A stretch of 64,000 nt of DNA, taken from Branchiostoma floridae. Taxonomy: Eukaryota > Chordata > Leptocardii > Amphioxiformes > Branchiostomatidae. The stretch is taken from contig NC_049982.1 in NCBI RefSeq assembly GCF_000003815.2, forward strand, positions 29,599,433-29,663,432, given 5' to 3'. The notes beneath the pieces are model-generated. The model ran no database searches. It was given only the letters and a program-made list of their open reading frames with translations, and was not told where the DNA came from. Position numbers and translations under genes: made by a program. This document shows, piece after piece, positions 6,001 to 61,740 of the stretch (within the stretch, counting starts at the first letter, position 1; the number at the start of each line of letters is the position of its first letter).

Positions 6001-6594
6001 GCGGTTATCCCCCAGGTGAGCCTTCATTCGTATGTAGAAAAGTTACAAAGTAATTTTAGGCACTCAAATCACTTTCTACCTTCTGCCCAGGGGCTTTACT
6101 ATTATAATCAAGTGTTGAAAGCAACGCACACTTTGTTTGAAATTTCGTAAGTCCGATCGTATGGGGTCGCTTTTTTTGCGGTTACCGAAGGGTTCGCTTA
6201 GCGGTTAGCGGTTATCCCCCAGGTGAGCCTTCATTCGTATGTAGAAAAGTTACAAAGTAATTTTAGGCACTCAAATCACTTTCTACCTTCTTCCCAGGGG
6301 TTTTACTATGATATTCAAGTGTTGAAAGTAACGCACACTTTTTTTGAAATTTCGTAAGTCCGACCGTATGGGGTCGCTTTTTTTGCGGTACCGTAGGGTT
6401 CGCTTAGCGGTTAGCGGTTATCCCCCAGGTGAGCCTTCATTCGTATGTAGAAAAGTTACAAAGTAATTTTAGGCACTCAAATCACTTTCTACCTTCTGCC
6501 CAGGGGCTTTACTATTATAATCAAGTGTTGAAAGCAACGCACACTTTGTTTGAAATTTCGTAAGTCGGACCGTATGGGGTCGCTTTTTTTGCGT
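1..6594. repeat. Satellite array block 1, ~200-207 bp monomer
   Basis: Head-to-tail copies of one unit run without a break from base 1. The phrase AGGTGAGCCTTCATTCGTATG starts near 1, 208, 407 and 613, giving spacings of 207, 200 and 206 bp. Monomers differ by point changes and by one or two copies of a 7-bp GTTAGCG word before the TATCCCCC box. Short open frames of about 60-72 residues recur in each monomer; they come from the repeat itself, follow no codon-constraint pattern and are not annotated as genes. Assembly gaps lie at 4295-4572 and 5459-5558. The block ends where a LINE is inserted. About 32 monomers fit in this span. Confidence 0.97.
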
Positions 6595-20300: not shown

Positions 20301-22150
20301 CCGAAGGGTTCCCTCAGCGGTTAGCGGTTATCCCCCAGGTTAGCCTTCATTCGTATGTAGAAAAGTTACAAAGTAATTTTAGGCACTCAAATCACTTTCT
20401 CCCTTCTGCCCACGGGTTTTACTATGATATTCAAGTGTTGAAAGTAACGCACACTTTGTTTGAAATTTCGTAAGTCCGATAGTATGGGGTCGCTTTTTTG
20501 CGGTTACCGAAAGGTTCGCTTAGCGGTTAGCGGTTATCTCCCAGATGAGCCTTCATTCGTATGTAGAAAAGTTACAAAGTAATTTTGGGTAATCAAATCA
20601 CTTCTGCCCAGGGGTCCCACTATGATATTCAAGTGTTGAAAGTTACGCACACTTTGTCAGAAAGTTCGTAAGTCCGACCTTATGGGGTCACTGGGTTACG
20701 GTTACCGAAAGGTTCGCTTAGCGGTTATCCCCCAGGTGAGCCTTCATTCGTATGTAGAAAAGTTACAAAGTAATTTTAGGCACTCAAATCACTTTCTACC
20801 TAATGCCGACGGGTTTTACTATGATATTCAAGTGTTGAAAGTAACGCACACTTTGTTTGAAATTTCGTAAGTCCGACCGTACGGGTCGCTTTTTTGCGGT
20901 TACCGAAAGGTTCGCTTAGCGGTTATCCCCCAGGTGAGCCTTCATTCGTATGTAGAAAAGTTACAAAGTAATTTCGGGTACTCAAATCACTTTCTACCTA
21001 ATGCCCACGGGTTTTACTATGATATTCTAGTGTTGAAAGTAACGCACACTTTGTTTGAAATTTCGTAAGTCCGATCGTATGGGGTCGCTTTTTTGCGGTT
21101 ACCGAAGGGTTCGCTTATGCGTAGATTATGCCCTTGGTGAGCCTTGCAATTCGTATGTAGAAACTAGTTACAAAGTAATTTTAGGCACTCAAATCACTTT
21201 CTACCTTCTGCCCACGGGTTTTACTATGATATTCAAGTGTTGAAAGTAACGCACACTTTGTTTGAAATTTCCTAAGTCCGACCGTATGGGGTCGCTTTTT
21301 TTTAGGTTACCGAAGGGTTCGCTTAGCGGTTAGCGGTTATCCCCCAGGTGAGCCTTCATTCGTATGTAGAAAAGTTACAAAGTTATTTTAGGCCTCCAAT
21401 CACTTACTGCCTTCTGCCGACGGGTTTTACTATGATATTCAAGTGTTGAAAGTAACGCACACTTTGTTTGAAATTTCGTAAGTCCGATCGTATGGGGTCG
21501 TTTTTTGCGGGTTCCGAAGGGGTTGCTTATCGGTTAGCGGCAATACCCCAGGTGAGCCTTCATTCGTATGTAGTAATGTTACAAAGTAATTTCGGGTACT
21601 CAAATCACTTTCTACCTAATGCCCCCGGGTTTTACTATGATATTCAAGTATTGAAAGTAACGCACACTTTGTTTGAAATTTCGTAAGTCCGATAGTATGG
21701 GGTCGCTTTTTTGCGGTTACCGAAAGGTTCGCTTAGCGGCTAGCGGTTATCCCCCAGGTGAGCCTTCATTCGTATGTAGAAAAGTTACAAAGTAATTTTT
21801 GGTACTCAAATCACTTTCTACCTTCTGCCCAGGGGTTTTACTATGATATTCAAGTGTTGAAAGTAACGCACACTTTGTTTGAAATCTCGTAAGTCCGACC
21901 GTATGGGGTCGCTTTTTTTGCGGTTACCGAAGGGTTCGCTTAGCGGTTAGCGGTTATCCCCCAGGTGAGCCTTCATTCGTATGTAGAAAAGTTACAAAGT
22001 AACTTTGGGTACTCAAATCACTTTCTACCTTCTGCCCACGGGTTTTACTATGATATTTAAGTGTTGAAAGTAACGCACACTTTGTTTGAAATTTCGTAAG
22101 TCCGATCGTATGGGGTCGCTTTTTTGCGGTTACCGAAGGGTTCGCTTATA
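8369..22150. repeat. Satellite array block 2, ~200-207 bp monomer
   Basis: This continues the block 1 array after the LINE, with about 67 monomers' worth of span including gaps. Gaps: 10548-11181, 11958-12241, 14936-15110, 15947-16046 and 19111-19210. Sequence touching some gap edges (10522-10547, 14909-14935) does not match the monomer and may be low-quality contig ends. Variant monomers recur in the same order at distant places, which indicates higher-order repeats. From about 19400 to 21700 the monomers are more divergent and include irregular ones (for example 21110-21150). The array ends at GGTTCGCTTAT, about 22150, where unique DNA begins. Confidence 0.96.
10548..11181. other. Assembly gap (634 N) inside satellite
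   Basis: This is a run of N of non-round length, so probably an estimated gap size. Both sides are satellite, but the last ~25 bases before and the first ~10 after do not match the monomer. Confidence 0.95.
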
Positions 22151-24459: not shown

Positions 24460-26970
24460 ATGATATCAAGTGTTGAAAGTAACGCACACTTTGTTTGAAA
24501 TTTCGTAAGTCCGACCGTATGGAGTCGCTTTTTTTGCGGTTACCGAAGGGTTCGCTTAGCGGTTAGCGGTTATCCCCCAGGTGAGCCTTCATTCGTATGT
24601 AGAAAAGTTAAAAAGTGATTTTAGGCCTCAAATCACTTTCTACCTAATGCCCACGGGTTTTACTATAATATTCAAGTATTGAAAGTAACGCACACTTTGT
24701 TTGAAATTTCGTAAGTCGGATCGTATGGGGTCGCTTTTTTACGGTTACCGAAAGGTTCGCTTAGCGGTTAGCGGTTATCCCCCAGGTGAGCATTCATTCG
24801 TATGTAGAAAAGTTACAAAGTAATTTTGGGTACTCAAATCACTTTCTTCCTTCTGCCCACGGGTTTTATTATGATATTTAAGTGTTGAAAGTAACGCACA
24901 CTTTGTTTGAAATTTCGTTAGTCCGACCGTATGGGGTCGCTTTTTTTGCGGTTACCGAAGGGTTCGCTTAGCGGTTAGCGGTTATCCCCCAGGTGAGCCT
25001 TCATTCGTATGTAGAAAAGTTACAAAGTAATTTTAGGCACTCAAATCACTTTCTACCTTCTTCCCACGGGTTTTACTATGATATTCAAGTGTTGAAAGTA
25101 ACGCACACTGTGTTTGAAATTTCGTAAGTCCGATCGTATGGGGTCGCTTTTTTGCGGTTACCGAAGGGTTCTCTTAGCGGTTATCCCCCAGGTGAGCCTT
25201 CATTCGTATGTAGAAAAGTTACAAAGTAATTTTGGGTACTCAAATTACTTTCTGCCTTCTGACCACGGGTTTTACCATGATATTCAAGTGTGAAAGTAAC
25301 GCACACTTTGTTTGAAATTTCGTAAGTCCGATTGTATGGGGTCGCTTTTTTGCGGTTACCGAAGGGTTTTCTCAGCGGTTATTGGTTATCCCCCAGGTGA
25401 GCCTTCATTTGGAAGTAGAAAAGTTACAATGTGATTTCGGGTACTCAGATCACTTTCTACCTTCTGCCCACGGGATTTACTATGATATTCAAGTGTTGAA
25501 AGTAACGCTAACTTTGTTTGAAATTTCGTAAGTCCGCTCGTATGGGGTCGCTTTTTTGCGGTTACCGAAATGTTCGCTTAGCGGTTAGCGGTTATCCCCA
25601 GGTGAGCCTTCATTCGTATGTAGAAAAGTTACAAAGTAATTTTGGGTACTCAAATCATTTTCTACCTTCTGCCCACGGGTTTTACTATGATATTCAAGTG
25701 TTGAAAGTAACGCACACTTTGTTTGAAATTTCGTAAGTCCGATCGTATGGGGTCGCTTTTTTGCGGTTACCGAAAGGTTCGCTTAGCGGTTATCGGTTAT
25801 CCCCCAGGTGAGCCTTCATTCGTATGTAGAAAAGTTACGAAGTAATTTTGGATACTCAAATCACTTTCTACCTTCTACCCAGGAGTTTTACTATGATATT
25901 CAAGTGTTGAAAGTAACGCACACTTTGTTTGAAATTTCGTAAGTCCGACCGTATGGGGTCGCTTTTTTTGCGGTTACCGAAGGGTTCGCTTAGCGGTTAT
26001 CCCCCAGGTGAGCCTTCATTCGTATGTAGAAAAGTTACAAAGTAATTTTAGGCACTCAAATCACTTTCTACCTTCTTCCCACGGGTTTTACTATGATATT
26101 CAAGTGTTGAAAGTAACGCACACTGTGTTTGAATTTCGTAAGTCCGATCGTATGGGTCGCTTTTTTGCGTTACCGAAGGGTTCGCTTACCGGTTATCCCC
26201 CAGGTGAGCCTTCATTCGTATGTAGAAAAGTTACAAAGTAATTTTGGGTACTCAAATTACTTTCTGCCTTCTGACCACGGGTTTACCATGATATTCAAGT
26301 GTTGAAAGTAACGCACACTTTGTTTGAAATTTCGTAAGTCCGATTGTATGGGGTCGCTTTTTTGCGGTTACCGAAGGGTTTTCTTAGCGGTTAGTGGTTA
26401 TCCCCCAGGTTAGCGTTCATTTGTAAGTAGAAAAGTTACAATGTAATTTCGGGTACTCAAATCACTTTCTATCTTCTGCCCACGGGATTTACTATTATAT
26501 TCAAGTGTTGAAAGTAACGCACACTTTGTTCGAAATTTCGTAAGTCCGCTCGTATGGGGTCGCTTTTTGCGGTTACCGAAAGGTTCGCTTAGCGGTTAGC
26601 GGTTATCCCCCAGGTGAGGCTTCATTCGTATGTAGAAAAGTTACGAAGTAATTTTGGATACTCAAATCACTTTCTACCTTCTGCCCAGGGGTTTAACTAT
26701 GATATTCAAGTGTTGAAAGTAACGCACACTTTGTTTGAAATTTCGTAAGTCCGACCGTATGTGGTCGCTTTTTTTGCGGTTACCGAAGGGTTCGCTTAGC
26801 GGTTAGCATCAATCCCCCAGGTGAGCCTTCATTCGTATGTAGAAAAGTTACAAAGTGATTTTAGGCCTCAAATCACTTTCTACCTAATGCCCAGGGGTTT
26901 TACTATGATATTCAAGTGTTGAAAGTAACGCACACTTTGTTTGAATTTCGTAGTCCGATTGTGTAAGGCG
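24460..26970. repeat. Satellite array block 3, ~200-207 bp monomer
   Basis: The monomer is the same, in the same orientation as blocks 1 and 2, on the far side of the Arf island; about 12 monomers. Diagnostic variants (GGTTTACCATG lacking one T near 26280; AACTTTGTTTG after a changed CGC near 25510) match variants in blocks 1 and 2, so the three blocks are one family with shared history. It ends at a 100-N gap (26976-27075). Confidence 0.95.
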
Positions 26971-36526: not shown

Positions 36527-39101
36527 ATGGGGACCTGCGCCAGCGTAAAAGCCAGTCAAGTGCATGAAGCCGAAGAGGGTATTTAACTTTGTTTCTTTGT
36601 TTAACCCTATCCAGCCTGGGGTGTGTGTGTGTGTGAGGGGGGGGGGGGTATGGAATGCCAGCGCCAACTTTGACGTTGTTTAACTCCCAAACGGCTTGTG
36701 CTAGGACAACCAAACTTGGTGACTTTTCCTACATTATTTTTAACAACAATTTATAAGACATAGTAAGTTTATAATTTTTCGTGTTACCATGGCAACGGGT
36801 TTCTGAAAGGCATATTTCACCAAATAAACGCTAATTTTGGTTTGAACAAAGGGATTTAAAAAGACTTTCTTGCTAAACAACACTTGTATTCATATATCTT
36901 ACATATCTTTATTTGACATATTTCATCAAATATTCATAATTCATGCTAATTTGATGACGTAGTTGGTCACAATACAAGATAGCCGACCATATGTTGATGA
37001 AAAGTCGGGACTGCAGCGGGGCGTGTGTGTGCGTGTATTTGCGGACAAGATAACTATTGACGCTGTGGATCGTTTTGCATGATATCTGGTAGTTATTTAG
37101 GGGTTTGGATAATGTATAGTATATAAAGATATATATAATGACTGTAGAGTAAATATGCAGAAATACGAATAGACTAATGTTTATTTCTATTAACAACAGA
37201 CCTGTATAAATGGACGGAACAAAAGCTCAGTATGAAGACAGGGGATGTCCAGCGTGCCCTGATCTGCTCCGATGCCGTGTATCTGTCCGACCTTCCCAAC
37301 ACCGACGCCATTCAACAGTTTTTAAAGGAAGAGCGAAACCTGCACAACTTTAAGCGGGTCAGCGTCAGCCGGTATGGATCTGTGAGGTACCTCCTTGCTG
37401 AAACTCAAGACAAAGAAGAAGTTTTCGTTGCATTCAAAGGTTAGACAATTTCAGACTTTTCGGGGCTATCTATGTTTCGTGTTGCGTTAGCGCTGGCCAA
37501 CCACCACGTCAGCCAATGAGGTACTCCACCTTCAGAGGCTGGAGCGACAGCTATAGACCAACCACGTCACCCTCTACGGTCAAGAGTCAATGTGATTGGC
37601 TGGTGACTTTTTCACCATTGTAAAAGCGTGTAATTATATCTGATTGGCTGACGGCAAGCCAATACCAACGCAGCGAGAAGCACGAATTGCAGGCCAGTAC
37701 CTTAGGCCGCGATGTTGGATGACGTAATCTTCTTTTGTTCAAGTGACCAATCACAACGATGACTCGACAACGCTTGTTTCCGTCATTGTTAAGTAAACAT
37801 GCTTCGTTTCTAATTTTGCAGGTACAACGGACTTCCAAGACGTCATGGCCAACCTGAATATTTGGCAATCGGCATCTAGTCAAAGCCGGGCCAATCACAA
37901 CACCGGGGTTGGCGGGAAATACCACGCGGGCTTCATGCACCTGGCCTTCCTCGTTCCCGCCAACCGCATCCTGGAGGAATACAGCAACAGCCGTATTGTC
38001 GTCTGCGGACACAGCCTAGGGGGCGCTGTTGCACACATTGTAGCTTTAAACATGATGGCGTGCCTACTCAACAAGGGTAAACCAGTCGACAACGTCAAGT
38101 CCATCGCGTTCGGTGCTCCGTACATCGGAAACGACGGCGCTCATCAGTTTGCCGAGGAATACAACCTCTCTCCTCACCTGTTGACGATCGTCAACGAGAA
38201 AGACCCCGTGCCTTACATACTCCGCCTAGCGGAAACGGTTCAATGTGCAGGGAAAACCGTTTTGAAGAAAGTTGAGAATTTTTCATCCACCGCGGCTCCC
38301 ATCGTGTTGGGCATTCTGGCTTCCCTTACCGGCTTGGGTATATTGGGAGCCAGCACTGCTGTTGCCAGCGCCGTAACAGCCAGCACAATACCCGCTCAGC
38401 TTGGCAAATGCGAGGGTATGTTGAAGAAATGGGGTCTACTCGCGCGGGACCTGGATTCCTTGTACGTGCCGCTAGGATGGTATCTGTACATTAGCTGCAG
38501 TACGTCGAAGGCCGGTGGGGGCGGTCATTGGCGGCACAAACTCTTGGAAAACCCCGGAGCTATCGAGTACGTTAGGCCAGACATCCGAGATTGGAAAGGT
38601 AATGTCTTCTCAACCATTATTAGCTGAGGCAACTAGGCTCTAATAGACGTTACACTACAAGTAAAAGCACTATAAAGAAATTCCTCACTAATAATGCAAA
38701 TGAGGTCCTCGTGACCATTTTCTTCTTAAACCTACCCATATGGCTAAAAGCTGTACAATCCTTCCATAGGATTTTAGACTATCTGAAAACGTATTAAGAC
38801 ATAGACACACAGACAGACACACACACATAAACACGTACTCGCACAAAAAAATGCCACAATTTGTAGTAGTAAGATGTCATCTTCGTCTGACTTTTTTTCT
38901 CTTTTACTTCAGATGAGGATTTCCAGTGCCACAGGGTGTCCAACTACCGCACGACTTTCTTTAAAGTCGCGAAAAGGACGACGTACCGGGCTGGTGACGT
39001 CATCATCGCGGACGCCACTTTCCCAGCAAGTATCAAGAGCTTCAGCGTTCTAGCGAAAGGTACGTGAAACAAACTCTCTATAAAGTTTCTCGCAGGCATG
39101 C

Positions 39102-47141: not shown

Positions 47142-50100
47142 ATGGAGGGAGAATTCCTCTTCGTTGCGGTGGTTCTAGTGCTGAGTGGTCACACGGGTGA
47201 GTACGTTTTGCCAGGCATCGCTAAGATCGATTACTTTTAGTTGTTGTTCCTTTTTTGCCCAGGGCGTTTTCGCTAGCATTCCAATCTCAATCTAAAGTCC
47301 GCAATCATTAAGCTTATAAGTAGAAAAAAGCGATATCAAAGTAAAACTGATGAAAGCTCGCCCGAGGGTAAAAGAATTTCAAAACAAATCTTGATAGAAA
47401 TATTTTTAAACCAGAGCTCGAGCAAGATTTTTTTCAGTAAGTGCGTAATTCTATTGGGGGGATTGGAAATTGCACGAGCTTTACTCAAAATGGTAGTTCT
47501 ACTATATTTTTGCATAACCGGTTCGAATTGATTATCATATTAACATATGTGTGTATAGAAACTTGATTGTATATCTCTCTTTAAGTTGATGAATGTTAGG
47601 CATTTCAGATACGTATTTCGTTATAAAAGATAAAAACCAAACAGCTGGAAAGAGTATATAAAAGTCTCAGGCGTAGCTCCATTCGATTACCTTCAACGGT
47701 GAACTCTTAATGTATCAATTCACACTTCACTGAGTAAAGACATTGGTCTCTGTCTAAATGGCCAGGCCCTGTCCGAGACTTCGTCCAATTCGTATGACGT
47801 ACTTAATATAATATACATATTGGTATATTTAAGTCTTTCCTGGGAAAGGAAGTCGGAACTGAACAGCAAACATTCGTTCGTCCAGAGGTACGAGGTATCT
47901 AGAGGTAGATAGAGGTAGAAATGGCATCAAGTTTCCTGGCTGTTTCTGTAGAAGGGTATATTTTTTCCGGTATGGATTGGTAGCTCTTCCCGGTGGGGAC
48001 ACTTTCTCGAACACGGTACCCCCATTCTGCGTACCTTTCCAAAGACGGATGCAGCCCAAACGTATCTACCTTACGCAGGATTGAACTTGGGTCTCCTAGT
48101 TACTAACTCATTGTAAACAAGAGCTTAACTGTAGGCTGCTACCAATTGAGCTACAGGGACATCCCTTATGTTACCCTCACCTAACCGTGTGTTTTTTTGT
48201 CTTTATCTACTCCTTGGTATCATGTCCTTCTCGACCAACGCACCAACCGTTTACTGTGGGACTTGGGTCTTCACGTGTGTGGCCTACCGACAACCCTTCG
48301 TTGCTAACAACTACAGAGGGACAGACCACTGTGGCAAACGCTGAACAAGGTATATACTCATTGCTCATATCGTTGTACTGAGAAATAGGTATAGTCGTCT
48401 CTCTGTTGCAATTTTCACTGTTTTTTTCTTAGTTAGAATAGTGTGTATGTATTATATTCCTAACCCAATATGTTCATAAGACATAAAAGAAGAGTAAATT
48501 TTTATATTGGGACGCACTCTGTACTCGATCCTATTCATACCCTGTACTTAATATGCTAATTATGCATTCAGACGAGCTCTACACTCAGTCTTATACATTT
48601 ATACGTAATAGAACAAGTTTTAGTATGCAGCTATGGTGTCTTCGGCGTAGAAATTCATGCTTCAAGTTGTAAACAAAAGTGTAATTCGTTTCTGAAAAAA
48701 AACAAACTTTTAGTTCTAAAGCCGGCGAGAACAAAAAACTGAACTTTTCTCGGTAAGATCAATTCAGTCATATTAATCATTGGTAGGATTTAACCCTCAA
48801 GCACCCGACCTTTTTTTGCGACTAAAATGACCGAGTGGGGTCCAAACGGACCCCAAAATGTTTTGTTCATAAAATCTCAGTACCATGTCTTATCGGCGAG
48901 CATTATATATACATTGCTTCGTTAATGTAAGAGGAAGATTTTGAGATGTTAAGGTGTTGCTAATTCCAACTCATTATCATAATTTATGCAAAAGTTCAGA
49001 AGGACCACGTTTTGCACTAAACCTATTCCCACCAGATAGGGGAATTTTGAGGCCCTCAGAAACATTTATGTCGCATAACTCATGAACGGATAGAGCTAAA
49101 GCTACGAAACTTGGTAATTTATCACAGAATATTGTTTGCAAAAGTTTTTTGTCAATAAAGTAAGTTTATCATTTTTTGGGGTTGCCATGGCAACCATATT
49201 CTAACAGGCATATTTTTGCCAAAATTTGACAATTTCAATATTAACAAGGTTTTCTTGGTAAACTACACCTGTTTTCTGACAACAATTAAATTCTATGAAA
49301 TTCAATGCAGTTTTCATGACTTAAAATTTATAATTTATGCTAATTTTATGACGTCATTGGTCAAAATCCAAGATGGCCGCCCTGATGAGGCAAATGACGT
49401 CATAATGTCGTCACATTACATGTTGATGACCCAGAAATTTTTGTGATGATTTCAGTTTACATTTTTATTATTGTCTGAAAGTTTGGTATTCATACTGTAA
49501 GTGGTTAAGGAGTTAGCCTCCAAAGTTTGTTTTAAAAACTGCACATTTTTGCTGGGGTCCGTTTGGACCCCAGAGGAACTGAACACAAACTTTCTTAATA
49601 ATTTCAACATTATTGTACCAATCATTGCGAAAACTTAGGAGAAGGTGTAAGACATATTGACTGACAAAGTCACGGAAGGATTTTTTCTTCAGATCAAAAA
49701 TGTTGAAATGGCACTTCAAAATGTACGCCTGGGGTCCAAATGGACCCCACTCGGGTGTTTGAGGGTTAAGACAGCCACAAGAAGCGTCCGAGTCCAGTTT
49801 CTTAACTGAACGCACAAATATAGCTACTGTAGATTTCCACAGGTTTCACGTATCGTTTATACCTTTGTCACATTACGCGAGAATCGATCGGACGACAATT
49901 CTGCGAGCTCTAAATGACATTTTCGTAAGACAAATGGTGTTCTCACGATAATCCGCGATTTCTCGGGATCGCCGGCGATTGCGATTTTCAGGGGTCGTAC
50001 GATGGCCGCGGTGCAGCGAAACATGTTATCAATACAGTCCTGTCATATTTGGCGAAAATCGATCGATTCTGCGGCAATCGCCCGAGCCTCACTTATAATG

Positions 50101-53100
50101 ATAAATTTATTGCACAACAAATTGTCCAAGGTAAAAGTATGGCTTATATGTGACAGGGACGGTTTTCAGGTGAAAAATACGCGCGCGCAACCCTCTGTCG
50201 ATCTTAAATAAGGCCGATCTTCCAGCGGTAGGCTTGAAGATAGTGGATGATGTGACAGGGGTGTAACACAAGCGACAAGTCGCCGGTGATCTCTGAGTTC
50301 GTAGAGCTTGTACCAAGTCGCCTGCAGATCGTGCAGATCGTGCAAATCAATTGGCGGACGCCAGTCAGTTGGGTGACGTTCGCCCGACTTAGGGCCGACG
50401 TACGGCCGACTTACGCCCGACTTACGTTTGTTTGAATGTCTTTAAATATGAGGATAATTCTGACATTGTGGCCCCTGTGGTAACATGTAGGCTGGCACAC
50501 ATTTTTCTTTCGTCATTTCTAGTTTGTCCGCGAATATCGTGCATTTAGACGTGCTCGGTACCAAATATAGTACACTTAGACATTCACGATATTTATATAT
50601 CTAAACTCATATCTACATATTTTGGCGTATAATTGACAGGGTGTGGACGAGCGGACGGGGGTTATATGGTCATACGTGGCTTATCCGGCGCCATCTCTAG
50701 CCCTGGTCACCCTGCCATGTACCCATCTAACTCAGTCTGCGCGTGAGTATATACACACAACATTCTACTGTTTATGTGTCGTGTTAATCTTATAACGTAG
50801 TCGTCTCATTATCGTGCGGTACCCATTATTGTGCGGTATCATTATCGTGCGGTACCCATTATCCTGCGGTACCCATTATCTTGCGGTAACTATTATCTTG
50901 CGGTAACCATTATCGTGCGGTACCAGTTATCTTGCGGTTACCATTATTGTGCAGTACCCATTATCGTGCGGTACCCATTATCGTGCGGTACCCATTATCG
51001 TGCGGTACCCATTATCTTTGCGGTACCCATTATCGTGCGGTACCCATTATCTTGCGGTACCTGTTATCTTACGGTAACCATTATCCTGCGGTACCCATCA
51101 TCTTGCGGTACCAGTTATCTTGCGGTTACCATTATTGTGCAGTACCCATTATCGTGCGGTAACCATTATCGTGCGGTACCCATTATCGTGCGGTACCCAT
51201 TATCGTGCGGTACCCATTATCTTTGCGGTACCCATTATCGTGCGGTACCCATTATCTTGCGGTACCTGTTATCTTACGGTAACCATTATCCTGCGGTACC
51301 CATCATCTTGCGGTACCAGTTATCTTGCGGTTACCATTATTGTGCAGTACCCATTATCGTGCGGTAACCATTACCGTGCGGTACCCATTATCGTGCGGTA
51401 CCCATTATTGTACGGTACCCATTATCGTGCGGCAACCATTATCACACGGTAACCATTATCGTGCGGTAACCATTATCGTGCGGTACCCATTATCGTGCGG
51501 TACCCATTACCGTGCGGTACCCATTATCGTGCGGTACCCATTATCGTGCGGTACCCATTATCTTTGCGGTACCCATTATCGTGCGGTACCCATTATCGTG
51601 CGGTACCCATTATCTTGCGGTACCTGTTATCTTACGGTAACCATTATCCTGCGGTACCCATCATCTTGCGGTACCAGTTATCTTGCGGTTACCATTATTG
51701 TGCAGTACCCATTATCGTGCGGTAACCATTATCGTGCGGTAACCATTATCGTGCGGTACCCATTATCGTGCGGTACCCATTATCTTGCGGTACCTGTTAT
51801 CTTACGGTTACCATTATCGTGCGGTACCCATCATCTTGCGGTACCAGTTGTCGTGTGGTAACCATTATTGTGCGGTAACCATTATCGTGCGGTACCAATT
51901 ATCATCCCGTACCATTACTTAGTATTTGAAAATATAGAATTTGCCCCCACTTGCTAATACGGGACCCTCCAATCTCTAGCGGTAGGTCTCGCGAGACTGT
52001 AATCTGGCCGCGCGCGCGCGTGATTTGACAGTCGGACGGTAACAGCCTTTAGCAGCCCAGCGGCTAACAATGGCTTCTCCCAGCATCGACTCGATCGAGT
52101 CAACTTCAGAGATTCGTTGTGCTATTATTTGGCAACATCCGCCGGTAAATCGGCATGCCATGAGCAGATAATATTGTTGTGAACCTATGGACTCGATATC
52201 GTGCTGTAAATTTGCAAATTTCTGGTCAATTTTCACAATTTTTGACGGGCGGTTTATGCTTGCTTGTCGTGAGAAAAACGTGCATATAGGCGCGTCGCCT
52301 TACTTGTAGTTACTCGGATGAGTTTGGCTCAAGCCGTAAAAATATCCCACAAAAGCGTACAAGTACCATTATTGGATCCTTGTAGATCCAAACACGTAAG
52401 ACCTTCGGCGATTTTGACCGTAAATTAGTCGATGGCAACATATCGGCCTTTGGGAGTTTACGCGTACGTGAGTTGGGGAGGGGAGCGTGTTTCCGTGTAT
52501 ATGTGTTCGTTTTGATCAAGACGGAGTCACTTTTCCGACTATGTCTATGATTTCAGTTTTCGCCGGCTGAAACTCCACAAAAACGTGAAAATATCGATGT
52601 AGGGTCCTTCTGGGTAGAAATCTAGCATGGTTTTGGCGGCTTTGTGGGCAACTTTTTATTGGTTAACTTCATACGTGATGAGTGGGTGTGTCTGCAAATG
52701 TATAACGTTTGGCATTTGCTGTTCTTTTTCAGATCAACGCGTCGCGATCGAAATTTACATCATCAGGGAAATACTGCAAATCATATGATGCAATAGCCGT
52801 ATTTCATGTTTTATAAAAGATGTCTTAACATATGGTCTTACTCGATCTCGTAGAGCTTTGCAACTCATGCTTTTGAGAAATGATAATTACATGTATATAT
52901 CATTAGTGTTTTTTCCAAATGATAGACAAGTTCTCACAGCATTTACAGTATTGACGAAAATAAGCATCCGATAAGTAATACTTTTGGGAAATGGTAATGT
53001 TTCATACACATAATCATTCAAATGTGCATTGTATTAAAATGTGAACTTTCAACATCTCTGACTGTTTTTGTGTGGCATAATTTTTGCAACAAATGAGACA

Positions 53101-56100
53101 TCGTCCTACTCAGACCTAAGACAGGTAAGGTGTCCACTTCCCTGTGCTATACATAGTAGTCCACTGTATTTCTTCATACATATCATAGAGTTTCTTACCT
53201 CCTTTGGCTCTTTGAGTGAACAGCTCCGGTAGTATGGCTGTTTTGTGAAAGTGGTCAAGCTTTGGGATATTCTTCTTCTGCCATTCTGAGTCTACTTTAA
53301 TTCGTTCGCAGAATAAATTATCCATGCCAAAGTAGACAACGAAGTCCGCCCAATTTAAGTTACAGCAATAGACATTCCCTTGCACTTGGTGGTGGTACCT
53401 GTGTGACGTTTTGAGTGCTGCACTGCTGTCTACCTTTGTTAAGAAAAATGTCTTATTCTGGACTGCCTATTTTAGCGTGAGTCCTTTCTTTGAATGGGGA
53501 CACAATGAATACACGAATGCGTTACTGGAAATACATGCAGTAGATGTACACATTTCCCGTTAAAATGTATAAAAAACGTACATTTCTAATTTCATGTTCA
53601 TGGTGAAATTATCCCTTCCGAGCTGTCTTTTTACCAGACAATCCCAGTGCTTAAGTAACGTGTTATCATCAAGTACATTTGGGGGGATCTTGAAAAATAT
53701 GATGCATGTTGGCACTTTCTCTTCATTAACACACTTGGACTGACGGCTATTGCATCCATATGATTTGCAGTATTTCCCTGCTGATGTGAATTTCGATCGC
53801 GACGCGTTGATCTGAAAAAGAACAGCAAATGCCAAACGTTATACATTTGCAGACACACCCACTCATTACATATTACATTAACCACAAAAGTCGGCCACAA
53901 AGCCGCCGAAACCATGCTAAATTTCTACCCAGAAGGACCCTACATCGATATTTTCACTTTTTGTGGAGTTTCATCCGGCGAAAACTGAAATCATAGTCGG
54001 AAAAGTGACTCCGCCTTGATCAAAACGAACGCGTATACGCGGAAACACGCCCCCCTCCCCAACTCACGTACGCGTAAACTCCCAAAGGCCGATATGTTGC
54101 CATCGACTAATTTACGGTCAAAATCGCCGAAAGTCTTACGTGTTTGGATCTACAAGGATCCAACAATGGTACTTGTACGCTTTTGTGGGATATTTTTACG
54201 GCTTGAGCCAAACTTATCCGAGTAACTACAAGTAAAGCGACGCGCCTATATGCACGTTTTTCTCACGACAAGCAAGCATAAGCTGCCCGTCAAAAAATGT
54301 AAAAATGACCAGAAATTTGCAAATTTACAGCACGATATCGAGTCCATAGGTTCACAACAATATTATCTGCTCAATCGATTTACCGGCGGATGTTGCCAAA
54401 TAATAGCACAACGAATCTCTGAAGTTGACTCGATCGAGTCGATGCTGGGAGAAGCCATTGTTAGCCGCTGGGCTGCTGAAGGCTGTTACCGTCCGACTGT
54501 CAAATCACGCGCGCGCGCGCGGCCAGATTACAGTCTCGCGAGACCTACCGCTAGAGATTGGAGGGTCCCGTATTGCGTTTTAAAAAGGATTAAATCGTAA
54601 TTGCAGGTGACAATTGCAAGTTACGCAGATTTCCGTCACTTTTTCAATGCCTGTCGCAAATTTTGGTGAAGTCCATTGAAATACCTGTTTAACATAACTT
54701 GATGACGTTATGACTGCCCTTCCAATTGTTTCCGCTAGGTGGAGGATCATTGTCGATGAAGGTCAGCGGATCGTTATAGTCTTCAACGCGTTGGATATTG
54801 AAGTCGACGCGCAGTGTAGGTATGACTACTTCCAGGTAAGACGATAGATAAACAAGACATATTAGTAGGAACTGTTCGGAAACCTCATATCTTCATGAAA
54901 CATTCTGATTATGCAAATAGCTTCAACGTCCTCCTACTCTATGTAAGATTCATTTCTGGGCTTAAGTGTGATCAGTAGTCATTTAAGCAGAAGTGTTCCA
55001 TTTTCGCACATGAGTGATTTTGGAACAGTCTATTGTTGCATTGGGAGGAAGATGACTGAAATGTGCTGCATTTGCTCTCAAGCAAATGCCGGCCTTTCTG
55101 ATTTTTTTTTTCAAGTTCGTCCCATTTCACACTTTCGGTACACCGCCCTTACCCAGTCTCTAGTAAGTGTTGTTCGTAATAGGGCCTTCACACTGAAACC
55201 GAATTACCAGGAATCAAGTAGAACCAGAGGGAATGAAATTCGTGCCACATTCGGGCTCGTTCCGAGTGGGAATTCCACATGGACCTTATATCCCCTTCAC
55301 ACGAGTAGGGAAGGGGCCAAAATGCCGTCAGAATGGAAATTATTTTCCTATTCCTGTGAATTCGTAGTGTAGTCTTGAAATTCTCACTGCATTCCAGATA
55401 TTCTTTTGGCCACATTCTGGCAAGTTTCGAAGTGTCTTGCCGTTTCGGTTCTCCATCGAATGAGATAAAAATGTTTCCAACAATGTTGGAATGCCGTGGA
55501 ATGCGGTTATACTGCAGCTAGAATAGTTAGAATCCACTTAGAATACAGTTTGAATGCCATTCGATATTTTTCCACTTCGAATGCACATCGCTATGTAGTG
55601 TCAAAAACTTTCGGGCCAGCCAAAAGAACGGGCACAAATATCTGGAAATGACTGGAGTACAGTGAGAATTTCTGGAACACGCCAGAAATTGCCAGGAATA
55701 GAAGAGAATTCCGACATTCCGGCTGATTATTGCTCTCGTGTGAAGGGGACTTAAAGGAGTCCGTGTTTCAATTACTGTACATTATGTGATTCAAACACTA
55801 ATGCGAAATTGAATCCCCTCGAAATTGAATTTATTTACAGTATACAATCAACTACTACTAAGTATATTTTCCCTGCAATGACTCTTACTATAGATTCGTG
55901 ACGGATCGGAGCCCTCTGCCGCTTCCCTGGCCAAAGTTTGCGGAAACTCCCTCCCGAGCCCGGTAACAAGTTCGGGGAACAATGTACTCATCACCTTTAG
56001 GTACGGTGTGTAGCATTTCTTTTTTTAACTAACGCTAGTTCACCTTTGTCCGCAGGGGAACCTATGTCCGTTTTATTTAAGGTCTCAGAACATAGTATTT

Positions 56101-59100
56101 ATTCGCGACCCCCGTCCCCAAAGTAGTTCGGGTACTTGCAAAGGCCGTAGTTATTCGTCCGTGCACAACAGCGATGTGGAAACTGTGGTGATTGTAGAGG
56201 AATACATCGGTGTTGATACTGTATAAGTTTGATTACGTTGCTTTTTCGGCCGGCGGGAAAAACAGATATAAAATTGGTGGACGTGGTTTCAAACTACAAT
56301 AATTTTCAAAATAATACAATTTTGAAACCACATCCGTTGACTTGATATTCCTAAACGTCACGTTTGTAGAAACAACGGATACATCATATAGGTCGCCCCT
56401 ATTTTAATGGAATAAACCTTTCATTGATGTATGGTGAGTTTGGTGCATTCAGGCATGTTATAGGTGTTTTTAAGCTTGTTTTAATTGTTTCGGTAACATC
56501 TATCGCGTCATTTTTAGAGTGGATATGTGTTCTAAAATTGACGTACATTGTCATACTTTAATGTACAATTGTATAGCCATGATGTTCCATGTAAGTATGC
56601 TATAAATGCTTATATATGGATGTGTAGTTTGTGTGTCCGTGAAGTATCGCCCATCCACGTACATTCTCGTGTATTCTCGTGAATTCTCGTAATCTCTCAC
56701 ACTCTCTCGCGTAACGTTACATTTGTTAGGTCCGACGACAGCGTTGGCGGCGAGGGTTTCGGCATAGAGTGGTCGGTGGAGTGCCTACCTACCCTGATCT
56801 CCTGTGACTACAGCGCCACCTGCATTAACCAGTCAAAGACATGCGACCTGATCAATGACTGTAACGACTGGACAGACGAGGGTGCAGATTGTCTAGAACA
56901 GGGCTTGGGGGCTTATGCAGCGCTCAAGAACGCTGGTATGATATCTTCTTCTTTTGTAAAATGCCCCATGCCATGGTTTAAGGTATACTATAACAGACTG
57001 GAATATGCAATGGGGGGAAGGGGTTAGACATATGTGACATATACTAAAAGTATACGAAATACTGTAAATGCATTTAAGTTTGCGGGGATTTAATTTTGCG
57101 GTAGCGAGGAAAGGATTGTTCGCAGTGGTTTTAAGTTCGCGTTAGCACCATACTCTGTAGTTTCTTACTGCCATGGAAAATGTTCGCGGTGGTGTTGAGT
57201 TCGAAGTTGCTATAACCACCTCATAAAACCATTCATTCGGTGGTTTTAGCAAAAGACCGGGCGTTATGACACCATATCACCTCGGGGCAGGTCATTAAAA
57301 AAACCCTTAATTTATGCATATGGAAACCTTATTTAGATAAACGATTGGTTGTAGAGGTTTTACATCATTTGACCGTATGAGGTCGTGGAACTCTGTATCT
57401 GTATATATTAACCTGAAAGTGTTGTCGCCATTTTCGTACCATAGGATGCTCAAGTAACATCGAGAACATCGTGGAAAACGGAACTCTGTCCACCCCGAAC
57501 TACCCGAGCTTCTACATCGCTGGGATGGACTGTGCATGGACCCTGAGCGCGGCCCCTGAGTCGGACGGGCGCTACCCCACCATTCTCGCCAGCTTCGACG
57601 ATCCATTCGGCGTCGCTTGCAGCGCGGGAAACATTGAGGTAACTATGTTTGTTAAACTTAAACTTCCACCCCCCCACCCCTACTTTTTTCATTTAAGACT
57701 GGTCAATTCAAGTCTTTTTCAAGGAATAGATGATACACTGCTTTTGTGACGTCTCGTCATGTAACACACGTAACTACAAGAAGACTATGGCAACCCCCGT
57801 CTATATAATATTGATAGACTTCCGCAACTTATGATCCACTACTCACCGAGTCACGTGTGTTTTCTACTTAAGGTGAGGTCACAGAAGCAGTCGATTGTCC
57901 AATTCAAGACAAAGACTGGAGTTGAACAGTCGAAAATTTGGGTCAAATTTTCCATAATAACTTGTACGAATACAGATGCACTTTCAAGTGAAGGTAAACC
58001 GTGTGTGTGTTTATGCACCAATCCTGGCTGTCCATCACAATTAATGGATCAACCAATGAGAGGATGGCAATTATCTGTTCGACCAATGACAGAATGGCTG
58101 CATGACCGTCAGATAATGTCATTTTATCTAATTTTATTTTTCATTTCTACGTTTTGACGGGGGTGGCCACGAGATTAGTCTATTGCATGCCTTTGCCAAG
58201 AAGGTTACGTTTCGGGGGTTGTGTGTCCATTGTGCTTTTGTTGTGTGTTGGTCTTTTGAACAATTAGGAAGGAAACGGAATTATCACAAAAGCATATTTC
58301 ACAATTAGGGCCAAAAGTCTTAAAAACTCTAAAACTTTAAGGAATTTATGTGATCTTCGATTTCCATCCAAACTATTACCAAGTTTAGCCCTTACACTAT
58401 TAGTATGTATTGGGTAGCGATTTTCTTTGTACACAAGACTTGCGATTGACCGTTTATTACACTCCTATTAGCCTATTAGGGCAATTTGATGAATTATTTT
58501 GCGCAATGCAGGTAAGTGTCGCTGCTAACACATGCAGTCCCAAACGTTACGTTATTGCATTAATGTTATAGATCGTGCGTTTTTCTACCATGCGGTGTCC
58601 AAACGTTAAAGAACAATATATATTCTTACAGATCTCAACAAGCGACAGCAACGGGGTAGTGGAGAGCACGACCGTGTGCGGGGACCAGGCGGGGCCCATC
58701 GCGATCGGCGCCGAGGAGGGGCAGACCATGATCCTGACGTTCTCCCCGAGCTCCGTCCCCATCGGGCAGGGTTACCGGGTGCAGTGGAGCCTTTGCCCGC
58801 CGGACTCTCTGGCGTGTCCGGTGACGGGACAGTGTTTCCCTCCTGAAAGCGGTGTGCTGAGCTGTCCAAGCCTCATTACTACAACACAGGACATGTGTAA
58901 GTTTCATTGACCTCCACCAGACCTTCAGGGGATCCACCAGCCATTCGCCATGAATGTAGTTCTGGGTCTAAAACTTCCAGATTTTTTTTCTTGGAAAAAA
59001 TGGGTAGAATTTCTGGCAGTTTTGAGATGTATATGATAGTGGTGGGTTTCTACTTTCTGATTATGGCCGAAAAGCTGAGTTTTTGGTGTTTCTAGGTGAT

Positions 59101-61740
59101 ATAATGTTGGGACTATTTCCTGGTTGTGCATGGGCCTCTTCACTTGATGGTTATGCGTTTGAGGGGGTGGGAGGGTTTGGGGGTATATTTTTTTGCAAAT
59201 TATGCCGTAAGATTTCCAATGACGCGGATTTTATCACAGCTGGGATGATTGGCTTTCATATGAGGGTAAGTTTTTAATCACAGTAACGTCAGAAAGGTGA
59301 GTTATTGCCACTGTCTTTCTCTGCTTTTTTGGGTACATTTCAATGGGCCAGGGATTGCCTGGCGACTGCCCTTCATATGGAGGTCATCGAGGGGATCGTA
59401 GAATTCGATTAAAAATTGGGATATTCGTCAGGGAAATCAGTTCTCGGTAAGGTTAATGTCCCCCTCCGGTAGACTTCCCTGGCAAATTATTCTCCCTTTA
59501 GAGCCAGCATAGTCAGTCTGCTGCAGACTTTTTTTTGTTAAGCTGCAGGAAGTGACAAAGATTTATAAATGACATCGCCGCCTACATTGATTTTCTCATG
59601 ATTTTGAAAATGAACAAATTTTGTCTGTTTCTAACACCAGGACCATAATGACAATCAAAGCATAAGGAAATTTTTTTGAAGAAACTGATCCTTTTTTTTT
59701 ACTTGATTGTGCCCACAAAATTGTCTAAGGGAAGCCTTTGGCATTCCTAGCACATTTGACAGTCTCCCCTCCAATCCAACATGGCCGCCGTATCTGGAAT
59801 GACACTTATTGCCTTGAGAATACTCGATTGGAATTTAAGTCATAACCCTGGTGTCTATTTCTTCATATCAGGCGTTTGAGTAGCTATAAAACGTTATCAT
59901 ATGATGTAATGTCAAATCTTGCGTTGCTATAGCGACCGGTGCTGGTGGTGGCACCGCCGCAGAGGGTGGGCACGCGACAGGGGGAACTCCACACACAGGC
60001 GCCACCATGCGTCAAGGCATCGTTACTGCAGCCGGGTCTTCTGACAACTCCACAATGTACACTGAAGGTAAGATGCACTCTGCCTTGTGTATTTTCTGTA
60101 TCTAACGTGGAAAGATCTATACTTTGCCGACTACGCCCAGGGAGTCAATACATACAGGTGTGTGTTTGCTTTAGTTGGTGTGTATTCGTGGTTATTTGAT
60201 TACGCTGTCATGTTTTTTGTATATAATGTATTCGTATGGTACTGCGGCGTAACATTAATGTACGTTTAGAGAATGGCAACTCCAAGTATTCTTCCTTCAA
60301 GCAATGACTGTAATTAAAGGCTTGGTAAATACATGTACTTCCAAATTTCCCACGGCTGACAGTCCATCTTGTTCACTGAGAGTGATCTTGTCTCGATCTC
60401 GCGAGAGAGCACGAGGCTTGATCAGGCTTGCGTAGATCATCTGCCCCCTTCTCCAAAGTCGTACCTATCCCTATTCCGCAAGGAAATCAATAACGTTTAG
60501 AGAATGATTCTCAAACTTGCTGTCCCCTGCAGGTCCAGACAACACCATGTGTTACCACTGCGAGGGGACATCGCGGGAATGCATGACGGGAAATGGCCTA
60601 GGGGGACATGCCATCAGGTGCCAAGAGCAAGAAGCATGCTGGGTAAGTTTTTTTAAAAACGTTGATTAGAGTTTGTACACTTTTGATACGAACTCCACAT
60701 TCTAACGTTTGCTTTTAGAATAAAGTGACTTTGCCAATGAAACAATCGTTAATCTAGTTATATATATAAAGTCATTATACCTCCTCTAACTGATGTGGTG
60801 CATCTTTGCTTACTTTCCAACACATCAGATCGTAGATTTAACGTTTGTTCTGAGTATGGCCCATTCACAAGTTTTCCCAGATAATTAGGTCCAATTTGAG
60901 GTCACGGACTTCGACCTGATCCTCCGGTTCTGAACCGTATACGTGTACTTGGAAATTCTGTACTAGTACCCACCACTAGTCGTAAATGGATAGTATTTGT
61001 AAGGCTAGTCTTTATGATACCGCATGGTGGCGCTGTATGGCAAGGAGCTAAATATTTTTTCCCCACAAGGTGGAACGAATCGGAGAGGATTTCAACGTGT
61101 CGTACAAACGGAGCTGCAAGCCTTCGTGCACCGACTACTGGAAGTACGAGACCTGCATGACAGCCGACAGGCAAGCAAAGGTAATAATAAGCTTTGGGGA
61201 CCAGTCACATTCTTACGATTTTCGTACGATTGTCGTAGCATCGTCGTACGATTGTCGTATGATCGTCATACGATTGTCGCAGGATCGTCATACGATTGTC
61301 GTAGGGTTGCCGTAGGGTTGTCTTAGGTTTGTTGTAGAGTTGTAGTAACATTGCAAAATGAAGACATTCGCGTGATAGCCTTCCGCATAAGTCGTACAAA
61401 ACTCAACTGTTTGCCTAGCTAAAAGGAAGATCTTCGAGATGGATCATTGTCTAAAGTTGAGAAGTGTTCGAATGTTGATGATGTACTAACTGCTTTCTGA
61501 CTATGCTCACCAATATCTGCGATGATCATGCCCCGTGGGTATCTGTACGTTTATTTTCAGATGTGCAAACTGTGCTGCACGGACGATCGGTGTAACACCC
61601 ACATCCTGACGGGCCACAACGACCCTCGGGCCCCCGTCCGAAGTGGCAACAGTGGTGCCGAGGGGATATTGGCGTCCCTCGGGCTTATGTCCATCCTCGC
61701 TCTCGCAATGTGTGCGGATATTCTCTCACTTATTACTTAG
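47142..61740 (+). CDS. Secreted/GPI-anchored CUB-LDLa-CUB-Ly6 protein, twelve exons
   Basis: Exons 47142-47196, 48317-48349, 50640-50742, 54739-54835, 55894-56000, 56730-56935, 57445-57638, 58632-58896, 59933-60067, 60533-60642, 61070-61180 and 61561-61740 join in frame to 531 residues, all GT-AG with matching phases. Order: signal peptide (MEGEFLFVAVVLVLSGH), CUB1 (about 31-148: LSGAISSPGHPAMYP, then CRYDYFQIRDG, then NVLITFRSDDS), an LDLa module (Cys150-Cys186, CNDWTDEGADC calcium site), CUB2 (about 202-320: NGTLSTPNYPSFY, DCAWTL), a short Cys-containing segment, a Gly/Thr linker (354-398), a Ly6/uPAR fold with 12 Cys (CYHCEG ... CCTDDRCN, about 405-485), and a hydrophobic C-terminus (ILASLGLMSILALAMC) after GNSGAEG, typical of a GPI signal. 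It is probably a cell-surface binding or recognition protein. Exon 2 (33 bp) is the least certain. Confidence 0.88.
47880..48165 (-). mobile_element. tRNA-derived SINE (intron 1 of CUB-Ly6 gene)
   Basis: On the minus strand, TGTAGCTCAATTGGTAGCAG is a strong A box (tRNA-like) and AAGTTCAATCC is a B box about 55 bp further on. A body with TTTGGAAAGGTACGC and GTACCGTGTTCGAG follows. Short TAGAGGTA tandem repeats lie at the tail side (47895-47920). Confidence 0.6.
48794..49765. mobile_element. Non-autonomous piggyBac-like (TTAA) element, 972 bp
   Basis: TTAA flanks both sides (48790-48793; 49766-49769). Terminal inverted repeats CCCTCAAGCACCCGA and TCGGGTGTTTGAGGG differ at one position, with GGGGTCC(A)..GGACCCC repeats just inside. 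The core (GTTGCCATGGCAACC, then TTTATGACGTCATTGGTC and CCAAGATGGCCGCC) is shared with the 43814 element although the ends differ. No transposase. Confidence 0.82.
49860..50440. repeat. CG-word-rich dispersed-repeat-like stretch (intron 2)
   Basis: Dense CGATCG, GTCGCC and CCGACTTACG words occur, including short imperfect tandem repeats at 50386-50430 (CCGACTTA/CCGACGTA) and GTGCAGATC at 50323-50345. There is no coding signal and the base composition is unlike its neighbours. It is probably a transposon-derived segment, but its ends were not found. Confidence 0.4.
50807..51912 (+). repeat. 17-bp minisatellite, ~64 copies
   Basis: The unit GCGGTACCCATTATCGT repeats across 1.1 kb, with variants CTT for CGT and AACC for ACCC. 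Because 17 is not a multiple of 3, all three frames cycle and several remain open, giving long spurious peptides. A longer pattern (TTGCGGTACCAGTTATCTTG ... GTGCAGTACC) recurs near 50920, 51108, 51313 and 51668, so there is a higher-order unit of roughly 11-12 monomers. Confidence 0.95.
53116..53463 (-). CDS. YqaJ-like (PD-(D/E)XK) nuclease fragment of the transposon
   Basis: The frame is open for about 115 codons to a TAG at 53116-53118. It reads TKVDSSAALKTSHRYHHQVQ, then GNVYCCNLNWADFVVY, then LFCERIKVDSEW and ILPELF. HxYxxQVQG ... WADFVV ... ERI is the C-terminal half of the YqaJ/lambda-exonuclease fold (the QVQG helix and the final strand). The catalytic E and D/ExK region is not seen in this piece and may lie in another exon or be lost. 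No ATG begins it, so it is likely an internal exon. Confidence 0.7.
   Translation of the reverse strand, partial: VQNKTFFLTKVDSSAALKTSHRYHHQVQGNVYCCNLNWADFVVYFGMDNLFCERIKVDSEWQKKNIPKLDHFHKTAILPELFTQRAKGGKKLYDMYEEIQWTTMYSTGKWTPYLS
53626..53811 (-). CDS. THAP-like zinc-finger exon of the transposon
   Basis: It begins right after an acceptor (TTCTTTTTCAG) with INASRSKFTSAGKYCKSYGC. It continues with FFKIPPN and LLKHWDCLVKR, matching the first half of a THAP (C2CH) finger: Cys pair, FxxFP-like box, conserved Trp. The distal Cys/His pair is not visible. The first ~70 bp lie in the inverted arm and are duplicated at 52733-52800, where a lost base (CATATGATG for CATATGGATG) breaks the Cys. Confidence 0.5.
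55286..55750. mobile_element. Short inverted-repeat element (intron 4 of CUB-Ly6 gene)
   Basis: TCCCCTTCACACGAG near 55289 and CTCGTGTGAAGGGGA near 55735 are inverted termini around about 460 bp of AATG/GGAAT-rich sequence. There is no coding and no clear target duplication. A similar CCTTCACAC word at 55184 may mark an older nested end. Confidence 0.6.
57060..57250 (+). repeat. Dispersed TTTCGCGGT-type repeat (intron 6)
   Basis: TACTGTAAATGCATTTAAG, GCGGGGATTTAATTTTGCGG, then TTCGCGGTGGT words resemble a repeat I recall as common in marine invertebrate genomes. No ends or target duplication were resolved. Confidence 0.45.
60276..60492 (+). mobile_element. Half-copy of the fold-back family, 14-bp target duplication (intron 9)
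   Basis: The sequence matches the left arm and middle of the 30664 element (CAAGCAATGAC, GTACTTCCAAATTT, GACAGTCCATCTTG, ATCTCGCGAGAG, TATTCCGCAAGGA). It is flanked by a perfect direct repeat ACGTTTAGAGAATG (60262-60275; 60493-60506). Confidence 0.75.
60885..60980 (+). mobile_element. Solo right end of the hAT-type family (intron 10)
   Basis: CCTGATCCTCCGGTTCTGAA ... AATTCTGTACTAGTACCCAC then CACTAG matches the right end of 31845-32340 with divergence. The left end was not found. Confidence 0.6.
61211..61350 (+). repeat. 11-bp minisatellite (intron 11)
   Basis: Units of the form CGTACGATTGT / CGTATGATCGT / CGTAGGGTTGT repeat about 12 times just downstream of the exon 11 donor. Alternating CGTACGAT/ATCGTACG words give it a partly palindromic character. 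Confidence 0.85.

Follow-up and report, generated by a model that had tools for sequence, protein, structure and literature searches.

A modular twelve-exon gene in the lancelet genome

The window analysed here, a 64,000-nucleotide stretch of the Branchiostoma floridae genome (NC_049982.1, here contig C4, positions 29599433-29663432), carries on its plus strand a gene of 12 exons at 47142-61740. Probably this is one functional gene, whose product would be a glycosylphosphatidylinositol (GPI)-anchored cell-surface protein built from phase-1 exon modules, belonging to a small lancelet family and likely to serve as a tethered co-receptor. Locating the exons by sequence and translation gave a single open frame of 531 residues and a stop codon, with GT..AG at 11 of 11 introns, and the in-frame splicing of twelve exons claimed in the initial annotation was thus borne out exactly. 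The product runs from a signal peptide through a first CUB domain (CUB1), an LDLa domain, a second CUB domain (CUB2), a half LDLa, a Ser/Thr-rich stalk and a Ly6/uPAR (LU)-like domain to a GPI-type tail. Its features are listed below, P0001 being the annotated B. floridae protein C3Y6W7.

Exon 1, 47142..47196, plus strand: start and signal peptide with hydrophobic core FLFVAVVLVL; same in P0001
Exon 2, 48317..48349, plus strand: short linker, symmetric phase 1-1; same in P0001
Exon 3, 50640..50742, plus strand: start of CUB1 (Pfam CUB)
Exon 4, 54739..54835, plus strand: CUB1, carrying the calcium-site acidic residues E85 and D93
Exon 5, 55894..56000, plus strand: CUB1
Exon 6, 56730..56935, plus strand: end of CUB1 (acidic D134) and the entire LDLa domain
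Exon 7, 57445..57638, plus strand: first half of CUB2
Exon 8, 58632..58896, plus strand: second half of CUB2 and the half LDLa (CPPDSLACPVTGQCFPPESGVLSC)
Exon 9, 59933..60067, plus strand: Ser/Thr-rich stalk, symmetric phase 1-1
Exon 10, 60533..60642, plus strand: Ly6/LU-like domain, cysteines 1-5
Exon 11, 61070..61180, plus strand: Ly6/LU-like domain, with fingers II and III assigned by analogy to LYPD1
Exon 12, 61561..61740, plus strand: last part of the LU-like domain (CKLCCTDDRCN), then the GPI-type tail and the stop codon
First-to-last intron span, 47197..61560, plus strand: 11 introns, enclosing exons 2-11, with mobile-element-like and minisatellite DNA in introns 2 and 3

The introns at the module borders are all of phase 1: exon 2, exons 3-6 (CUB1 and LDLa), exons 7-8 (CUB2 and the half LDLa) and exon 9 are each 1-1 units, and the LU exons begin at exon 10 behind a phase-1 intron.

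Two of the introns are rich in repeats. Intron 3 holds a 17-base minisatellite at 50807-51903 (CATTATCGTGCGGTACC, 64 copies), to which the same intron of a paralogue described below aligns many times, and a large fold-back element at 51956-54574, in which seven pairs of inverted arms are nested (93-100% complementarity, about 0.8 kb per side). In intron 2, an element-like stretch at 48790-49769 has inverted ends (79% over 34 bases) and TTAA flanks and begins with CCCT, flanks and start that we take to be as in piggyBac-type elements.

CUB and LDLa domains of the ectodomain

The CUB and LDLa domains named in the initial annotation both exceeded the curated Pfam cut-offs, CUB (PF00431) with 120.5 bits over two stretches (cut-off 21.4) and LDLa (PF00057) with 25.8 bits (cut-off 24.1), the latter with six cysteines and an acidic calcium cage. 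An acidic triplet at the calcium site is the rule for calcium-binding CUB (cCUB) domains. The CUB1 residues E85, D93 and D134 align with the acidic residues of a cubilin CUB and are invariant in all seven aligned family sequences (E89, D97 and D138 in the numbering of P0003, one of the lancelet relatives below), as are the cysteines and acidic residues of the LDLa, and CUB1 is thus, by its triplet, a predicted cCUB domain. In CUB2 the triplet is lacking: aligned to the first cubilin CUB, it has P, G and S at these positions.

A piece that the initial annotation does not mention, CPPDSLACPVTGQCFPPESGVLSC, follows CUB2 and contains four of the six LDLa cysteines; we read it as the putative first half of an LDLa. 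Scanned alone it gave no Pfam match, and a match to the TMPRSS6 chain 9nrc_A spans query positions 10-145 and so, by the range of the match only, runs through it.

By sequence, the closest CUB matches were those of cubilin, PCPE-1 and neuropilin, and a Foldseek search with the full-length model of the relative P0004 was led by PCPE-1 (best E 2.3e-18) and neuropilin, with Neto lower. PCPE-1, the neuropilins and cubilin have the closest solved CUB domains to those of the window protein. Their other domains are of the NTR, coagulation-factor and EGF types, none of which was found in Pfam scans of the window protein, P0003, P0004 and P0005, and to our knowledge these proteins have neither an LU domain nor a GPI tail.

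The C-terminal LU-like domain

The C-terminal domain is very probably an LU (Ly6) domain, judging from its cysteine pattern, from weak profile matches that agree with one another and from a shuffle test, and it is the weakest of the domain calls. The Pfam family UPAR_LY6 (PF00021) scored 8.6 bits for the C-terminal piece and 11.4 for the trimmed domain, below the cut-off of 24.8, and was listed only when the C-terminal piece was scanned apart, the whole-protein scan listing none. Because of this score we use the name LU-like, and the Ly6/uPAR domain proposed earlier stands as a pattern and not as a curated family match.

Among eight trimmed relatives scanned against Pfam, UPAR_LY6 was listed for seven (best E 0.011), Quiver (QVR) for five (best E 0.0018), both below cut-off, the snake-toxin-like family for five and the activin-receptor family for one; all four are three-finger families, and the only other family listed was a BH3 model, in two of the eight. 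A Pfam scan of P0010, a full-length-type stalk-LU protein, listed none of the three-finger families. When a profile of the eight members was compared with PDB sequences at E ≤ 10, two chains only were found, LYPD1 (6zss), whose alignment extends over the full domain at E 0.93, and a CaM-kinase chain.

The domain has 12 cysteines in the order of LYPD1 and at similar spacing (2,6,12,5,16,3,8,9,2,0,4 in the window protein; 2,8,8,7,16,5,10,8,2,0,4 in LYPD1), with a CxxC start and a CCxxxxCN end. The real score against LYPD1 was reached by 1 of 5000 shuffles with cysteines fixed and by 0 of 5000 full shuffles. A phase-1 intron bounds the LU exon set on its 5′ side, before exon 10, as in LU genes; the set comprises three exons here, against the usual two for a mature LU domain in the account of PMC6600238.

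Stalk and GPI-type tail

A stretch containing exon 9, an exon that the initial annotation likewise does not mention as a stalk, is rich in serine and threonine (16 S/T among the 54 residues 347-400). Since this separate exon forms the stalk, the LU-like domain would be the membrane end and not itself the stalk, so that of the three-finger stalk claimed earlier the membrane-proximal position holds and the role of stalk passes to exon 9.

After SGNSGAEG the chain ends hydrophobically, with no K/R in the last 25 residues and with the small residues N502-S503-G504 preceding the hydrophobic tail, and it stops within or just after the hydrophobic segment, leaving no cytoplasmic part. Hydropathy and composition fit a GPI signal in the window protein, in the relatives P0002-P0006 and in P0010, and P0011 has one K/R in its last 25 residues. 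We therefore read the C-terminus as a putative GPI signal; the GPI-anchored ending of the initial annotation agrees with this fit and with the same order in lancelet gene models, as a reading by hydropathy and composition and not as the output of a predictor.

Relatives in lancelets

A search of 5.8 billion proteins gave nine matches at E ≤ 0.001 among 7990 candidates scored. Three such searches gave 9, 2 and 8 matches, two of them scoring 7990 and 7993 candidates that share most words. Because these searches reach only relatives sharing short words, they do not establish that the architecture is absent outside lancelets.

The closest match, best of the 7990 candidates scored, was C3Y6W7 (C3Y6W7_BRAFL, P0001) of B. 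floridae, which is identical to window residues 1-472 (exons 1-11) and diverges afterwards. We rejected the C-terminus of C3Y6W7 itself, as its last 27 residues are not exon 12 and occur in none of P0002-P0007; they match the minus strand at 40295-40215 (70% over 27) and C4:29663894-29664010, just beyond the window. Near the former match lies an open reading frame for a class 3 lipase at 37797-38627 (Pfam Lipase_3, 70.5 bits).

Seven lancelet relatives contain both halves of the protein (P0001-P0007, gene models from B. floridae, B. lanceolatum, B. belcheri and hybrid assemblies), and the exon 12 product, absent from C3Y6W7, is present in the other six and in P0010. P0003, P0004 and P0005 extend from signal peptide to tail without large insertions; P0002 begins at the CUB1 start, P0007 begins inside CUB1 and has an altered end, and P0006 has insertions. 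The B. lanceolatum and B. belcheri models keep the domain order. With these models, the identity to the annotated protein and the constrained same-exon paralogue described next, the single CUB-LDLa-CUB-LU-like-GPI gene of the initial annotation is supported.

One B. lanceolatum relative, P0008, has CUB-LDLa followed by a ZP domain and departs from the window protein at the phase-1 border of exons 6 and 7, at first sight one more case of shuffling. In the B. floridae genome search with P0008 (84 matches listed, 82 of 742 candidates scored), its CUB-LDLa part was closest to the window gene and its C4 paralogue and its ZP part lay on C5, C2 and C1 among the matches listed, and no counterpart of the join was found among the 82 of 742 scored. 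The P0008 join may be lineage-specific or a mis-joined model, and we did not rely on it.

A second full copy under constraint

Genome comparisons (B. floridae, 513 Mb, 431 contigs) with P0010 and P0001 as queries found a second copy on the minus strand at C4:28757175-28742279, 0.9 Mb from the window gene. It retains 12 of 12 exons with GT..AG at 11 of 11 introns and the same joins; its exon 1 is longer by three bases and its exon 9 shorter by six, and its exon 12 stays open as far as an assembly gap that falls at the stop. In the neighbourhood of the window, tblastn found no further copy in the 40 kb downstream, and of the 20 kb upstream 19,150 bases are N.

Between the window gene and this paralogue dN was 0.075 and dS 0.196 (dN/dS 0.38), and by these estimates the two genes are under purifying selection. 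By module, dN/dS was 0.22 for the signal peptide and linker, 0.33 for CUB1, 0.07 for LDLa, 0.38 for the stalk and 0.34 for LU. In CUB2, dS was 0.06 against 0.20 for the whole gene (57445-58896 compared with C4:28749978-28749177), and this low value hints at local gene conversion between the paralogues.

Stalk-LU-tail exons behind other ectodomains

Besides the two CUB-LDLa-CUB copies, two more loci carry full LU exon sets, one on C4 and one on C11. The first, C4:31148267-31152717 (P0010, LOC118413775), has stalk and LU exons, 88% identical to the window protein over LU and tail, preceded by a ShK exon at C4:31147210-31147338 (Pfam ShK 31.9 bits, cut-off 20.9) that reads as AG/GT-bounded with phase 1 on both sides. 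The P0010 model starts inside the ShK exon, its similarity to the window-gene family begins at the start of exon 9, and no CUB exon was found on the plus strand in about 14 kb upstream at E ≤ 1. At the second, C11:9257906-9262450, the order is CUB exons, Thr-rich stretch, stalk exon and LU exons, with no LDLa or CUB2 match. Next to it, C11:9250633-9253558 carries CUB exons and an exon 12, with no match for LU exons 10-11. Across C11:9248001-9263000 the CUB/LU copies stand in tandem: the full set, this copy with no more than CUB exons and exon 12, and another CUB end at 9248078. Splicing as drawn at the ShK and C11 loci is inferred from exon order and phase, and at the ShK locus also from the P0010 model. 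In all six pairs of the four loci dN/dS of the LU exons was 0.24-0.46 (exons 10-12 within C4, exons 10-11 with C11).

These loci suggest that the stalk-LU-GPI exons are a reusable part behind different predicted ectodomains in a small lancelet family. The mobility of LU as a module is doubted in a 2019 review (PMC6600238); contrary to that doubt, LU looks mobile here on the exon evidence. With a little less than even confidence, we would go further and regard the LU domain, stalk and GPI signal as truly mobile, a single phase-1 exon set having been placed behind CUB-LDLa-CUB, behind a lone CUB and behind ShK. The LYPD1-like three-finger domain would in this way have come to serve as a membrane mount of general use, and in the CUB-LDLa case one chain would unite both known kinds of receptor-auxiliary domain. 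Should transcripts agree, the family would contradict the view that LU is not exchanged between multidomain proteins. The occurrence of LU-like exons in three modular contexts of one genome, with phase-1 borders, makes LU mobility testable by transcripts, and a natural fusion of CUB/LDLa with a LYPD1-like domain allows its partners to be sought.

Comparison with known systems

As described in PMC9083331, Neto, SOL-2 and LEV-10 are type I transmembrane CUB and LDLa proteins that act on ionotropic receptors. The window protein resembles Neto1/2, SOL-2 and LEV-10 in combining CUB and LDLa in one cell-surface ectodomain; unlike these type I transmembrane proteins, for which the cited passages mention no LU domain (PMC9083331), it joins CUB-LDLa-CUB to an LU-like domain and a GPI-type tail and lacks a cytoplasmic part.

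On the LU side, Lynx2/LYPD1 has six disulfides, two of them extra ones in loops I and III, and LYPD6 and LYPD6B likewise have extra disulfides in these loops, according to the passages on them in PMC7582953. The likeness to these three lies in the 12-cysteine Lynx2 pattern and in GPI anchoring, putative here (PMC7582953). They are single LU domains, whereas in the window protein a CUB/LDLa ectodomain and a stalk, together about 400 residues, precede the LU-like domain, and the similarity stays below curated cut-offs. The closest precedent for LU exons joined to foreign N-terminal exon material is GPIHBP1 and SP-10, which in the account of PMC6600238 add a disordered segment, whereas the lancelet family adds folded CUB, LDLa or, in the C4 relative, ShK domains.

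The initial annotation had called the combination unfamiliar, and among the matches listed in titles and abstracts of the open-access literature on CUB with Ly6, LU or LDLa, or on amphioxus, a CUB-LDLa-CUB-LU architecture was not found. The relevant passages of PMC13409769 and PMC8417595 mention both 'LU domain' and 'CUB domain', not joined in one protein. The arrangement is real and unusual, a new combination of known domains in a lancelet family.

Proposed function and alternative readings

The secreted-type start, the retained calcium-site residues and the GPI-type end are the parts of a functional proposal shown by the sequence. In a gene that would have been assembled from modules bounded by phase-1 introns, CUB1 and LDLa, with their calcium-binding acidic residues kept, could capture a protein ligand, and CUB2, without such residues, might space or dimerise. 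The stalk and LU domain would hold the ectodomain at the outer membrane leaflet, with the LU domain perhaps adding a further surface to which a receptor in cis could bind. A GPI protein lacks a cytoplasmic part, and for this reason we favour a tethered role, that of a calcium-dependent, ligand-binding co-receptor or auxiliary subunit.

Several points weigh against this proposal and the domain calls beneath it. No LU match reaches a curated cut-off; the unrelated CaM-kinase chain matches the LU profile similarly to LYPD1 (E 0.89 against 0.93); hhalign gave a probability of 5.9% (E 0.0064); and the predicted LU structure, at pLDDT 45, is too poor to use, Foldseek and VIA-align with this poor model listing no LU chain. 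The GPI tail was judged by hydropathy only. Between the two C4 copies, dN/dS was near or above 1 for CUB2 (0.91), for the half LDLa (1.27) and for the tail (0.79), values that rest on 5, 1 and 3.7 synonymous changes, respectively. The LDLa of LEV-10 is dispensable in the account of PMC9083331, and retention of an LDLa is therefore no sure sign that it binds a ligand.

Among the alternatives, a ligand-binding receptor of the gut or the immune system, belonging to the many shuffled CUB surface proteins of lancelets and using LU only as a membrane mount, is somewhat unlikely. CUB-like matches do lie over many contigs (86 listed including the gene's own exons, 86 of 514 candidates scored), and the cassette occurs behind different ectodomains including ShK, yet the two C4 copies are constrained overall (dN/dS 0.38) and not fast-evolving.

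About as likely as such a receptor, though unlikely in itself, is a lancelet auxiliary subunit of ionotropic receptors in the manner of Neto, LEV-10 and SOL-2, with a LYPD1/LYPD6-like LU domain and a GPI anchor replacing the transmembrane part. The LU cysteine pattern matches LYPD1, Lynx2 (LYPD1), LYPD6 and LYPD6B are discussed as nicotinic-receptor modulators (PMC7582953), and Neto2 chains were among the Foldseek matches of the full-length model; the best CUB matches, however, are cubilin, PCPE-1 and neuropilin, with Neto lower, and the dispensable LEV-10 LDLa (PMC9083331) counts against it too. Because CUB and LDLa proteins act on ionotropic receptors, and Lynx2/LYPD1 and LYPD6 on nicotinic receptors, a receptor-auxiliary role is the boldest testable reading.

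That two adjacent genes, one for a CUB/LDLa protein and one for a separate Ly6-GPI protein, have been wrongly joined is very unlikely. Banyai and Patthy describe high misprediction rates in lancelet gene models (PMC4967905), which would favour such an error, and there are two LU-like proteins annotated with no CUB, P0010 and P0011. We judge it unlikely because the same join occurs in the B. lanceolatum, B. belcheri and hybrid-assembly models and the opposite-strand paralogue 0.9 Mb away preserves the exon order; at the C11 locus, moreover, CUB exons also precede LU exons, and exon 9 has no hydrophobic start and is of phase 1 at both ends (no search of intron 8 for another first exon was made). 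That the members are what annotators named them, tolloid-like, procollagen C-endopeptidase enhancer-like or cubilin-like, as in the source names of P0002, P0003, P0005 and P0007 and in keeping with the CUB matches to PCPE-1 and cubilin, is hardly credible, and we rejected these names (tolloid, PCPE, cubilin, TLL1), which follow the CUB domains and are contradicted by domain content, the defining astacin (tolloid), NTR (PCPE) and EGF (cubilin) domains having no Pfam match with E ≤ 10 in the window protein or in P0003, P0004 and P0005.

Surroundings of the gene in the window

A 206-base satellite covers much of the first 27 kb of the window in five arrays, whose copy numbers range from about 5 to 52:

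206-base satellite arrays, within 1-26959: 1-5458, 5559-6593, 8369-19110, 19213-22148 and 24460-26959
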